Shown one piece after another: positions 10,456-64,000 of a stretch of DNA of 64,000 bases (its first letter is position 1; each line of letters begins with the position of its first letter). Position numbers and translations under genes: made by a program. A model generated the notes under the pieces. It was given only the letters and a program-made list of their open reading frames with translations, had not been told where the DNA came from and ran no database searches. Origin of the DNA: Cyanobacteria bacterium FACHB-DQ100 (lineage in GTDB: Bacteria > Cyanobacteriota > Cyanobacteriia > Leptolyngbyales > Leptolyngbyaceae); assembly GCA_014695195.1 (NCBI GenBank), contig JACJNW010000006.1:1-64000 (forward strand), read 5' to 3'.

Positions 10456-10495
10456 GGTTTATTGGGGTTTGTTGTTTAGTTAATCTTGTGTGGCT

Positions 10496-60283: not shown

Positions 60284-60715
60284 CTAAGAATTCAGGCGAC
60301 GAGAGCGATAGCTTCCTTTGATTTCACGGTTAAAGAATCGACCGGGGGAATCTGTGTCTTGAAGTTCGTGCCAGGTTTCGACATCAACACCTTCGTATTG
60401 ATACACAGCACCATTCTTGAACTGAACTTGCAAAAGATGTTGATCTGGATCATATCCAACTGCATTTGCCATTGATGATTGCACAGGTAACATCGGTAAG
60501 GCTTGATTCACACCCGGAAGTTGATTGAAATCAGCAGCAGGGGCGGCATCTGAGGAAACAATCGCATCCAGCAGCCTCAATCCTTCGTAGGCAGCTAACG
60601 GTGCGGGAACTTCAACAAATTCCAAATCAGCACCACGATCGATCACTAATCCTAAGCAGTCATCATCATGGCTAATGGCTACAATGCTGCTCAGATCGAC
60701 TTTAGAAAGCTTCAT
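60284..60715 (-). CDS. KTSC-domain protein
   Basis: A 143-residue protein. The last 65 residues form a KTSC domain: SSMANAVGYDPDQHLLQVQF, then GAVYQYEGVD, and FFNREIKGSY at the end. The N-terminal part has a beta-alpha pattern around VAISHDDDCLGLVIDRGADLEF. KTSC domains are small, of unclear role, and often found with nucleic-acid processing or defence proteins. The gene starts 12 bases after the second coiled-coil gene, so the three form one operon. Confidence 0.85.
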   Translation of the reverse strand: MKLSKVDLSSIVAISHDDDCLGLVIDRGADLEFVEVPAPLAAYEGLRLLDAIVSSDAAPAADFNQLPGVNQALPMLPVQSSMANAVGYDPDQHLLQVQFKNGAVYQYEGVDVETWHELQDTDSPGRFFNREIKGSYRSRRLNS

Positions 60716-60727
60716 GCACTATCTCCT

Positions 60728-61822
60728 TTATTTCACTTTGTTTTGGTTTTTAGCTTGTTCTAGTGCAATTTCCTTAACAGCATTGAATGAACTCACGCTG
60801 GCTGAACCTTCGATCGCTTTCACTGCTAAGTCTTGGACTTGCTTCAGCGCTCCATCTAACTGATTTGAGAGGGCTTGAATTCGGGTTTCTTGGGCTTGGA
60901 TTGTTTCCAGTAGAGATTGAATTCGCAACTCGTAGGTGCGTTTTTGCCCTTCAATCTCTTTTGCCATCAGATCGGCTTTGACTTTTGCTTGCTGGTTTGC
61001 AATGCCTTTGCCTTCTTCTTTGGCGCGTTTAACCGCAGCTTCAAGCTCCTTTGGTATGGCTTCGACTTTGGCTTTCAACTCGGCAAACTGAGTTTCACGA
61101 TCGCGAACCGTTTTTTCTCGTTCTGCCCACTGCTTTTGCTGCGTCTGCTGCAACTCTTCTAATTCACGGTACAAGCGAGTTTTTTCCTGCTCATACTCAT
61201 CATTTGAGAGTTTGCGTTCTAAGTTGAGCGTGTAGGTGTACTCTTCTCCATCTCGCCGTTGAGTCTTGGTGAGAGTTTCATTGCGTTCCTTGATGCTGCG
61301 GCGGTGTTCCTCTTGTTCTTTTGCCCAGGCTTTTCTGGCTTGAGTGATCTCCTGGTTGAGTGTTTCTTGTCGCTGTCGCCGTTCTTCGCTGAATGTCTTG
61401 GAACTGTCTTCGTACTGTTGAATTAATGCCTCTACAGTACAATCTTCTGCCTGTAGATTGTGCAATGTTTCTAGCTGTTGAGCTTCTTCTACAACTGCCT
61501 GCCGTAGTTCTTGCAGCTTCAGCACTTCCAAAGTTAGCTTTTCAGATAGGTCACTGATTGCGCCACCAAAACCAAGTTGTAGCTGATTTAGTCCGGTGAT
61601 GATGGTTTCCATCTTTTGTTGAGGCGCGATCGTTAGTTCTGGTGTAGCTTTACCGTTTGTTTTACCATTCGATGTTTTAGCATTCGATTGTGATGCAGGT
61701 TCAACAGGTTTCGCAAGCAGTTGTTCTTCTAAAGCTTTCTTCTGTTTGAGTAGTTCATCAAATGCAGATAGAATCTCAACCTTCGTGCTTTTTTCAGTGG
61801 GACGTTTAGTTACCATTGCCAA
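60728..61822 (-). CDS. Coiled-coil protein B
   Basis: A 364-residue protein that is almost entirely coiled coil, except for a low-complexity part near residues 40-65 (SNAKTSNGKTNGK). It has no membrane segment. The C-terminal half aligns with protein A: NDEYEQEKTRLYRELEE against TDEYEETKRQIEREIRE, and ELEAAVKRAKEEG against ELEEAVKKAREEG. The two are tandem paralogues and may form a heteromeric filament or scaffold. The N-terminus VEILSAFDELL corresponds to RILDAFQTIL in protein A. No known function. Confidence 0.75.
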   Translation of the reverse strand: MAMVTKRPTEKSTKVEILSAFDELLKQKKALEEQLLAKPVEPASQSNAKTSNGKTNGKATPELTIAPQQKMETIITGLNQLQLGFGGAISDLSEKLTLEVLKLQELRQAVVEEAQQLETLHNLQAEDCTVEALIQQYEDSSKTFSEERRQRQETLNQEITQARKAWAKEQEEHRRSIKERNETLTKTQRRDGEEYTYTLNLERKLSNDEYEQEKTRLYRELEELQQTQQKQWAEREKTVRDRETQFAELKAKVEAIPKELEAAVKRAKEEGKGIANQQAKVKADLMAKEIEGQKRTYELRIQSLLETIQAQETRIQALSNQLDGALKQVQDLAVKAIEGSASVSSFNAVKEIALEQAKNQNKVK

Positions 61823-61858
61823 TCCTCAAGCTCACAGTAAACAGTTCAAGTGGTGCAA

Positions 61859-62857
61859 TTATTCGCTTCTTGTAGCGAGACGGTTAGATGAACTATCAAA
61901 GGCTCGCATTGCAAGTTCTTGAGCTTGACGCAAGGCTGTTTGTAGTTGGGTGGAAATCTCGCTGATTTGCTCGGTCTGTTTCTGAATCTTGGCTTCTAGC
62001 GATCGGATCTGCAATTCATAGCCTTGCTGGGTGGATTCCCATTCTTTTTCCAGCAGATCTGCCTTGATTTTGGCATCCTGATGAGCATCGCGAATTCCTT
62101 CTTCCCGTGCTTTTTTGACCGCTTCTTCCAGTTCGCCTGGGAAAGCCGTGACCTTTTGCTGATACTCCTCATATAGTCTCTGATCGGCTGCCAGAATGCG
62201 TTCTCGCTCCGTCCAGTCTTTCTCTTTGGCTTCGAGCGTTTCCCTAATTTCTCGCTCGATTTGCCGTTTCGTTTCTTCATACTCATCGGTTGCAATGCGG
62301 CGCGATCGCGCACTGTCGTACTGGTAATCTTCTTCCTGACGCTGCCGTTGCTGGTTCAGAAGTTCGCTGCTCTCGTTGATCTGAGCGTCAAACTCTTCTT
62401 GCTCTTGCTGCCAAGTTTTGCGAGTTTCGGTAGTATCGCGATCGAGGGTTTCACGATCGCGCGTTGCTTGTTGTTCAAGTTGGCGCAGAGCTTCTTGATG
62501 TTCTTGTGTGATCAAGTAGAGGGCATCAGCAACGATGCGGGTCTGCTGAAGATCTTTGAGATTCTTACTTTCAACTGCAAGCGCTCGTTTAAGGTCATCG
62601 AGCTTCTTGGTTTCAGTGGTTAGGCGATTGGCAAGAGCGGTGATCGTCGTGCCAAAATCCAATTGCAAATCAGCCAGCCCGCGCACAATTCCGTCTGCTG
62701 TGTATTGCGACACTGTTTCCAGCACTGTTCTGTCTTGCTCTTTGGCGGCTTCTTCGCTGCGGGTGGCAACTCGTGACGAGACCGATCGCTGCTCGGTAAG
62801 GATGGTTTGAAAGGCATCGAGAATCCTGGTTTTGCTGTCGTTTGCAACTTGTGTCAT
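61859..62857 (-). CDS. Coiled-coil protein A
   Basis: A 332-residue, highly charged coiled-coil protein beginning MTQVANDSKTRILDAFQTIL. Regular Gln/Glu/Lys heptads run through residues 90-310. It is the promoter-proximal gene of an operon with paralogue B and the KTSC gene. It starts 186 bases from the divergent XRE regulator, with the dyad at 62946-62963 between them. Codon use looks like the neighbours. A role as a phage-sensing or structural scaffold is speculation. Confidence 0.75.
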   Translation of the reverse strand: MTQVANDSKTRILDAFQTILTEQRSVSSRVATRSEEAAKEQDRTVLETVSQYTADGIVRGLADLQLDFGTTITALANRLTTETKKLDDLKRALAVESKNLKDLQQTRIVADALYLITQEHQEALRQLEQQATRDRETLDRDTTETRKTWQQEQEEFDAQINESSELLNQQRQRQEEDYQYDSARSRRIATDEYEETKRQIEREIRETLEAKEKDWTERERILAADQRLYEEYQQKVTAFPGELEEAVKKAREEGIRDAHQDAKIKADLLEKEWESTQQGYELQIRSLEAKIQKQTEQISEISTQLQTALRQAQELAMRAFDSSSNRLATRSE

Positions 62858-62901
62858 AGCGGAGGTGGGAAAAGAGTGAATTTCTGCTGCTCAGAAGCAG
62901 G

Positions 62902-62933
62902 ACTGCTATACGATCGGGGGCAGTACTGCTATA
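62902..62933. repeat. Short direct repeat in divergent promoter region
   Basis: ACTGCTATA occurs at 62902-62910 and 62925-62933, 23 bases apart, roughly two turns of DNA. On the minus strand the second copy yields TACTAT, usable as a -10 box for coiled-coil gene A. Confidence 0.4.
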
Positions 62934-62945
62934 GTAGGAGTAGAA

Positions 62946-62963
62946 TGCAAACCACAGTTTGCA
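62946..62963. promoter_or_regulatory. Operator-like dyad O1
   Basis: TGCAAAC, four bases (CACA), GTTTGCA: a perfect dyad in the intergenic region of the divergent genes. It lies where the -35 region of the coiled-coil operon promoter would be. A related half-perfect site, O2, is at 63024-63039. Binding by the adjacent XRE protein is inferred. Confidence 0.6.
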
Positions 62964-63023
62964 ATTCATGTGTACTACTTTATCACTTTTCCTCCGCCTA
63001 TGCAACATCCAACGACAAAAATC

Positions 63024-63039
63024 GCAAACTGTAGTTGTC
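63024..63039. promoter_or_regulatory. Operator-like dyad O2
   Basis: GCAAAC, four bases (TGTA), GTTGTC: same spacing as O1, with the second half imperfect. It ends three bases before the XRE start codon at 63043, so a bound repressor would block XRE expression. Confidence 0.55.
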
Positions 63040-63042
63040 AAA

Positions 63043-63420
63043 ATGAGAATGGATGAATTTGCAAAACGAGTCCGCGATCGTCGGATTCAAGAAGGGTTAA
63101 GCCAGCAAGAATTAGCTGAGCAGATTGGAATTTCCCGTAATTACCTATCTCAAATTGAGCGGGGGCAGGCAACGAATCTCTCTTGGCAGGTGCGGGAGCG
63201 ATTGTCTGCGGTGTTAGGGCTAAAGGCGGAACCTGCACCAAGTTCCGCATTAGAGTCAGTCGATCTGCCTCCAAGTTTGGTGGAGTTCGCTCAAAACGCG
63301 AATCTACCGCCCGATGATGTGTTGATGCTGTCGCGATTGAAGTATCGAGGACAGCAGCCGACCTCGCCGGAGAAATGGGAGCTACTGTATAACGTCATTA
63401 AGATGACAGTAGGAAAATAG
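63043..63420 (+). CDS. XRE-family regulator
   Basis: A 125-residue protein with an N-terminal helix-turn-helix (RVRDRRIQEGLSQQELAEQIGISRNYLSQIERGQATNLSWQVRERLSAVLGL), giving recognition helix SRNYLSQIERG. The C-terminal part is helical (PPDDVLMLSRLKYRGQQPTSPEKWELLYNVI-type). ATG 63043 starts MRMDEFAKRVRD; no ribosome binding site is obvious, as in leaderless genes. It sits next to dyads O1 and O2 and 102 bases before an ImmA-like gene, a typical repressor/anti-repressor pairing. Confidence 0.87.
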   Translation: MRMDEFAKRVRDRRIQEGLSQQELAEQIGISRNYLSQIERGQATNLSWQVRERLSAVLGLKAEPAPSSALESVDLPPSLVEFAQNANLPPDDVLMLSRLKYRGQQPTSPEKWELLYNVIKMTVGK

Positions 63421-63522
63421 AAATAGGAAAATAGAAAGTTCACCGTTTGTTGAGTGAACTGCTAATCGATCGACCAATCTTTTAAGTTTGGGCACTCTAG
63501 CGCGAAAAATGTGAGGAACCCT

Positions 63523-64000
63523 GTGAGCCTGCCACAGCCCTATCGACATCCCGGACGAGCCTTCCTGTCTCAACATGGAAGGCTTCAATGTGAAGATGAT
63601 GTCTTTCGCTATGTCAATTTCCTGCGGCAAGAATCCGGGTTAGGTGATGAACCTCCGATCGCTCTGACTTGCATTTATCAACACTTTGGAATGCCTGAGC
63701 CGCTACGCGCCCCGCTTGAGGAGCAACAAGGCATTTTAGTAGACAGCAACACCGGGATTATTCTGATTAAAGAAGATGATCCGATCGTGCGGCAGCGCTT
63801 CACTGAGGGACACGAACTGATGGAATTGCTGTTTGATGCTCAACAAGAAGCGAGGTTTGAGAGCGCTTTGCCAAACTGGAGCGAACAGCGTAAAGAGCGA
63901 CTCTGCGATCAAGGAGCCGCCGATTTGTTGATGCCGCAATCCTCATTTGTGCCAAAGTTGAATCGGTTAGGCATTTCTTTCAAGACGGGACGATCGCTTG
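63523..64000 (+). CDS. ImmA/IrrE-like metallopeptidase, partial
   Basis: A frame open to the end of the window (159 codons), starting GTG with GAGG seven bases upstream. The order QRFTEGHELMELLFD then LCDQGAADLLMPQSSF matches the ImmA/IrrE (DUF955) fold, where the usual motif is HExxH and a later Glu/Ala-rich helix ends in LLMP. Here the motif is HELME, with Glu in place of the second His. ImmA-type proteases cleave XRE repressors, so it may regulate the neighbouring regulator, or be a non-catalytic sensor. The C-terminus is beyond the window. Confidence 0.82.
   Translation, partial: MSLPQPYRHPGRAFLSQHGRLQCEDDVFRYVNFLRQESGLGDEPPIALTCIYQHFGMPEPLRAPLEEQQGILVDSNTGIILIKEDDPIVRQRFTEGHELMELLFDAQQEARFESALPNWSEQRKERLCDQGAADLLMPQSSFVPKLNRLGISFKTGRSL

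Follow-up and report, generated by a model that had tools for sequence, protein, structure and literature searches.

We analysed a window of 64,000 nucleotides (positions 1-64,000 of contig JACJNW010000006.1) from the cyanobacterium FACHB-DQ100 (Leptolyngbyaceae), at the end of which two coiled-coil genes and a gene for a KTSC-domain protein face the genes for an XRE-type regulator and an ImmA/IrrE-like protein. The contig is 151,690 bases long and contains the last gene in full. The minus strand encodes CC-B, the product of the first operon gene (332 amino acids, 61859-62857), CC-A (362 amino acids, 60728-61816; a TTG-initiated reading frame extends to 61822) and, as third operon gene, the KTSC-domain protein (143 amino acids, 60284-60715). 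The plus strand encodes the XRE protein (125 amino acids, 63043-63420) and its ImmA/IrrE-like partner (289 amino acids, 63511-64000 in the window and ending at contig position 64380). The open reading frames of window and contig contain all five genes and both dyads, O1 and O2, described in the original prediction; the divergent region is 185 bases long (62858-63042), one base shorter than given there.

A search with CC-B retrieves CC-A with 35% identity (E-value 1.7e-46), and because of this match the two are called paralogues, as had been proposed. The sequences fit coiled coils, with 45% Glu, Lys, Gln and Arg, a single core proline and z values of 2.0 and 3.4 for the heptad period. They match profiles of ZorA, JetC, SMC (structural maintenance of chromosomes) and guanylate kinase only weakly, seemingly through no more than their coiled-coil character. 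Searches for CC-B were positive in 33 of 194 cyanobacterial genomes and, after enlargement of the set, in 54 of 386, a sample with one genome per species and uneven coverage of the families. CC-A adjoins CC-B in every intact locus inspected, in the order CC-B then CC-A; contig ends truncate six loci (L035, L039, L049, L133, L136, L143). The locus architecture was borne out in 20 further genomes used for validation. Two decayed copies of the pair with several stops were seen, one in a heterocystous genome (G390:C1:2829851-2831967) and one in family f13 (G151:C19:232-1068).

The XRE protein contains a helix-turn-helix domain (Pfam HTH_31, 2e-13) and matches DdrO of Deinococcus over its full length (residues 7-123; 6jq1, 2.1e-8; 6rnx, 9.3e-7). 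Foldseek comparison of its model returned DdrO chains as the top five matches, although the template modelling scores stay near 0.4, as the placement of the two domains differs; in VIA-align the alignment of the model is filled by the helix-turn-helix domain and the C-terminal domain is barely tested. These matches support a protein of the repressor kind that is DdrO-like along its whole length, with a helix-turn-helix and a DdrO-type C-terminal domain. The L-R-G sequence that we take to be the cleavage region of DdrO aligns with Y101-R102-G103, in which RG is conserved.

The complete five-gene set recurs as a unit in several genera, which had been proposed as a check: it is present in the window, at L038, L033, L034, L036 and L094 and at L126 of the validation genome G202. 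In Kovacikia minuta (L094; NZ_CP083583.1, 109472-122302) the entire locus is located on a plasmid of 1.2 Mb and may thus move between replicons. The KTSC gene (Pfam KTSC 4.5e-24, residues 79-136 of the protein) was seen only at loci with the DdrO-type regulator (L033-L036, L038, L094, L126). No Pfam family matches the first 78 residues of this protein.

O1 (TGCAAAC-CACA-GTTTGCA, 18 bases, 62946-62963) lies at the start of the coiled-coil operon, and O2, an imperfect dyad (GCAAAC-TGTA-GTTGTC, 63024-63039), immediately before the XRE start. The 16-base core of O1 occurs exactly once in the 5.5-Mb genome. O2 is unremarkable alone, with 331 places in the genome within two mismatches. An alignment of the seven loci has 13 of 18 invariant columns in O1, 7 of 16 in O2 and 33 of 90 in the surroundings, and 13 of the 14 bases in the O1 arms are invariant if the N4 spacer varies, as the alignment shows. 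This supports the prediction that both are conserved operator-like sites, O2 with more variation and O1 as the probable operator of the coiled-coil genes. A consensus promoter scan of the divergent region found nothing; from the aligned promoters, TTGCAT-N17-TAAAGT (62977-63005, minus strand), which falls short of a strong consensus match, was read as the probable promoter of the coiled-coil operon.

The partner is positive for the M78 domain (Pfam Peptidase_M78, 1.1e-7 on the full protein; 32.1 bits against a cut-off of 22). Its best solved relatives in the PDB are IrrE (4.5e-4) and CapP (1.5e-3), and the best PADLOC models for the switch are capP (1.5e-22) and capH (2.4e-11). The AlphaFold model of the partner is too poor to use, with a mean predicted local distance difference test score of 40. 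Among the 194 genomes a full-length relative was present in the window's own genome only, other matches being weak and partial, and full-length homologues were found almost only with a window-type locus. Instead of HEXXH the partner has HELME, as do all eight homologues. It keeps the catalytic Glu in HE and, within ERLCDQGAAD, that of the third ligand; either Glu105 may be a metal ligand or the partner may act without cutting. Since HEXXH is absent we class it as M78-like, outside the active peptidases, and since HELME is found in eight of eight homologues, partner-driven proteolysis of the repressor should not be assumed. The regulatory part of the original prediction was thus upheld for an XRE repressor with conserved operator-like sites, but not for its inactivation in the ImmA/IrrE manner. 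The locus resembles IrrE(PprI)-DdrO of Deinococcus in that its XRE protein matches DdrO throughout and the partner matches IrrE; it differs in HELME, in the operator TGCAAAC-N4-GTTTGCA and in that one local target, rather than a wide regulon, was found. It likewise resembles CapP-CapH of the cyclic-oligonucleotide-based anti-phage signalling system (CBASS), with an M78 protein and an XRE protein beside a divergent operon, but the aligned CapP has HELGH where the window partner has HELME. The signal of IrrE and CapP is single-stranded DNA (PMC10904395).

The partner might be a dead peptidase, with XRE being relieved otherwise, or a non-cutting anti-repressor that binds XRE; we give this slightly less than an even chance. 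It is favoured by HELME in the eight homologues, compared to HEIGH in the ImmA proteins of the ArhR-type loci described below. On the other hand, the gene is strictly conserved and linked to XRE, both glutamates are retained, and the presumed DdrO cleavage region aligns with Y101-R102-G103. This alternative affects a single step and does not conflict with induction of the operon by DNA damage.

The coiled-coil pair could be connected to two systems already described. In the heterocystous family f7 it is usually directly divergent from genes for a response regulator, a histidine kinase and PhoU (Pfam), and in Nostoc/Anabaena sp. PCC 7120 the genes all4503, all4502 and all4501 are sphR, sphS and phoU (PMC7564538). 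Because the f7 neighbours match sphR-sphS-phoU of PCC 7120, the pair corresponds to alr4504/alr4505: CC-B and CC-A are orthologous to these by synteny, the PCC 7120 proteins having been compared by gene order only. We take alr4504 and alr4505 to encode ZicK and ZacK, a pair for which mutants of Anabaena PCC 7120 have been described. As in PCC 7120, the window has two adjacent coiled-coil genes in the same order, and the heterocystous CC-B copies are 50-54% identical to the CC-B of the window. The heterocystous loci differ in that they have a LexA box in the promoter and no XRE/IrrE-like or KTSC genes. ZicK and ZacK are reported to form heteropolymers only when together and to support trichome shape (PMC7766704); the proteins of alr4505 and alr4504 increase 20- and 4.35-fold under β-N-methylamino-L-alanine (BMAA) stress, and the genes are listed as NtcA-controlled (PMC8147232).

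Family f11 and genome G234 (f37) show another layout, in which ImmA and XRE genes are divergent from genes for proteins of approximately 88, 250 and 130 amino acids, followed by CC-B and CC-A. In Limnospira (Arthrospira) PCC 8005 the XRE gene arhR (ARTHROv5_10466) is divergent from arhA-E (10467-10471), which gamma rays induce 8- to 30-fold (PMC8400943) and which are among the strongest radiation-induced genes (PMC4550399). The last two arh genes are reported to be conserved, one with a chromosome-segregation (SMC-like) domain and 47.84% to Nostoc 7120 (PMC4398503, PMC4550399). According to layout and reported conservation, the pair is very probably identical with these two genes; CC-B copies of f11 and f7 are 50-60% identical. 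CC-B would accordingly be of the ZicK (Alr4504) or SMC-like Arh type, as read from the homologue search and the CC-B tree, and CC-A, given its paralogy to CC-B, its place beside it and the heterocystous synteny, of the ZacK (Alr4505) or last-arh-gene type. The window has a divergent XRE gene and what is very probably the coiled-coil pair of the arh loci, but the arh-type loci have the three extra genes (arhA-C), a non-orthologous XRE protein, a canonical HEIGH ImmA, other operators and no KTSC gene. The view that this gene set belongs to no named system can thus no longer be held, as synteny identifies the pair with ZicK/ZacK and layout with the two conserved proteins of the arh operon.

Loci of the ArhR type (Microcoleaceae and others) encode an XRE protein with a different C-terminal part, and in 13 of them the canonical HEIGH ImmA gene lies next to it. 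In most of these loci there are two or three copies of the dyad TTGA-N8-TCAA with repeated spacings, in many cases overlapping the -35 box, against a background of one per 7.5 kb. Three dyads at near-constant spacing (24 and 37 bases) were observed in two families (L042, L046, L047, L134, L137, L139, L141); such triple dyads before an arh-type operon form a clear predicted operator array for ArhR. None of the 13 heterocystous loci sampled first has the dyad, and the validation genomes agree except for one isolated match (L135). L064 has the XRE gene and no dyad. At L059 (G008) two ArhR-type dyads are present and an adjacent XRE gene is absent, so that the regulator may act from elsewhere, and at L061 (G143) none of the three switches was recognised. 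In L046 an opposite-strand reading frame of 422 amino acids (L046:4294-5562, transposase-like by eye) splits the arh-type operon between the first and second gene. A wider ArhR regulon was considered and rejected: other TTGA-N8-TCAA sites of the ArhR-type genomes fall within genes or adjoin genes that have no evident link to repair.

The heterocystous loci carry a third switch. LexA boxes were defined as RGTACNNNDGTWCB (PMC3091678) and matched within one mismatch, with a background of about one per 7 kb. In all 13 loci of the first heterocystous sample the promoter is TTGACA-17/18-TAnnnT with the LexA box right after the -10 box, and an XRE gene is absent; among 27 other loci the same match was found once, in Pantanalinema. 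Of 11 further heterocystous genomes nine have the box within 450 bases and two farther away, at -617 and -502, which brings the total to 24 of 24 loci, including L055, which is without sphRS neighbours. It had been suggested that coiled-coil genes usually found without XRE/ImmA neighbours would refute the original prediction. This is literally the case in the heterocystous lineages, but they carry the LexA box instead.

A lexA gene is present in all 13 heterocystous genomes searched. The genome of the window has three LexA-family matches above the curated cut-off of TIGR00498 (G000:C31:3882-4487, G000:C44:140203-140826, G000:C26:35171-35809), an unusual number, as most relatives have one. With the same model no lexA gene was found in six genomes that are approximately 99% complete, four of them from family f11 (G099, G129, G157, G039) and the others G008 and G131. 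Four of the six carry the arh-type operon with its own XRE-ImmA switch, which might act as a stand-in for the SOS switch.

Across the loci the operator type follows the regulator type, and two lineages carry LexA-type and O-type sites together. In Pantanalinema (L037) the coiled-coil promoter retains an exact O2, and the LexA-like box AGTACGTATGAACT follows the -10 box; the genes for XRE and the M78 protein lie at another site of this genome (L111), away from the pair. Kovacikia has AGTACGTATGAACT in the same place with O1 directly after it. At the aligned place the window contains AGTACACATGAATT (62963-62976, minus strand), a LexA-box remnant with two mismatches that is weak alone; such matches arise by chance about once per 400 bases, and the remnant alone would be chance.

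The CC-B tree places the DdrO-type rows in a single clade (96/96) with Pantanalinema as its sister; the LexA-type clade is the sister group of both together, and the ArhR type branches outside. The switch labels need three changes on this tree, the minimum possible, compared to a mean of 17.9 after shuffling. Since relatedness alone clusters labels, this low count shows orderly replacement and not independent support from each locus. The root of the tree is not fixed; our own reading is an order from ArhR to LexA to DdrO, with Pantanalinema and Kovacikia as apparent intermediates.

We consider it probable that the locus is a DNA-damage-inducible operon for a coiled-coil scaffold of the ZicK/ZacK type. 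The pair looks DNA-damage-induced because it is linked to a DdrO-like repressor here and to two other damage-type switches, one of them a LexA box, in sister lineages, and we regard this regulatory inference as strong. At rest, XRE would bind both O1, which lies immediately past the operon promoter, and O2, holding both directions low; by binding O2 it would repress its own gene. Upon DNA damage in FACHB-DQ100 the IrrE-like partner would remove or disable the repressor, in analogy to IrrE-DdrO and CapP-CapH, and given HELME it may do so with an unusual metal site or without cutting. CC-B, CC-A and the KTSC protein would then be made, and these copies of CC-B and CC-A may co-assemble into filaments as reported for ZicK/ZacK. 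The scaffold could support cell or trichome structure, and possibly the chromosome, during repair: its task may be either trichome or septum stability, as the ZicK/ZacK work suggests, or chromosome protection, to which the SMC likeness and the radiation induction point. Of the stress or phage signal originally proposed, the stress part is retained as DNA damage, in line with the gamma-ray induction of arh, the LexA boxes and the DdrO likeness; the phage part is not. Evenly balanced, in our view, is the wider proposal of a dedicated two-protein, intermediate-filament-like scaffold that is made on DNA damage, whose switch has been exchanged among three unrelated repressor types, ArhR-ImmA, LexA and a DdrO-like repressor with an HExxE partner, and which would explain the radiation-induced arh genes of Spirulina.

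Several observations weigh against a DNA-damage-inducible operon. The partner is negative for HEXXH; the search of the genome for the O1 core found no wider damage regulon of XRE, only the local target; and the Limnospira identity is derived from layout and reported conservation, not from sequence alignment. Induction of arh is given in the Arthrospira papers, and tests of the LexA box on zicK were not found in the open-access literature. ZicK and ZacK are described as a shape factor rather than as a damage response (PMC7766704), and the BMAA and NtcA data suggest other inputs (PMC8147232). These last reports, together with the sphR-sphS-phoU neighbours in heterocystous genomes, would fit a trichome-shape cytoskeleton that is constitutive or tuned by nutrients and stress, its switches responding to several signals, namely nitrogen, phosphate and redox, and only incidentally to DNA damage. 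We consider this unlikely, since the pair is also under an XRE-ImmA switch in other lineages, the LexA box is present in every heterocystous locus, even at L055, and arh is not induced by nitrogen deprivation or light/dark transitions in Arthrospira (PMC4550399).

The PADLOC matches to capP and capH could also point to CapH/CapP-type control of a system for anti-phage defence or abortive infection, in which the coiled coils would be the effector. This is very improbable: the coiled-coil matches to ZorA and JetC are weak, the pair keeps a stable position on the chromosome across many genomes, and no CD-NTase (the CBASS nucleotidyltransferase), effector or other defence gene was recognised among the neighbouring reading frames as read, which were not scanned individually against PADLOC. 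The neighbours are secY- and adk-like reading frames upstream in the window and a ribokinase-like one past the M78 gene (named by eye), surroundings that look like ordinary chromosome rather than an island. Least probable of all, and already disfavoured, are chance neighbours with noise dyads, for although XRE and M78 genes are common, such pairs mobile and O2 alone not rare, the same five genes are linked in seven loci of several genera, full-length IrrE-like homologues are almost confined to the locus, O1 is conserved and the operators track the regulator type.

The DNA-damage reading joins three literatures, those on ZicK/ZacK filaments, on the arh radiation genes, whose function has been unknown since 2015, and on XRE/IrrE switches; this link was not found in open-access papers. 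The HELME protein raises the question whether an IrrE-type regulator can be functional without HEXXH. The exchange of switches on one operon makes regulatory rewiring readable, Pantanalinema and Kovacikia being the apparent intermediates. For the biology of the group, the analysis predicts that a cytoskeleton-like protein pair belongs to the cyanobacterial DNA-damage response.

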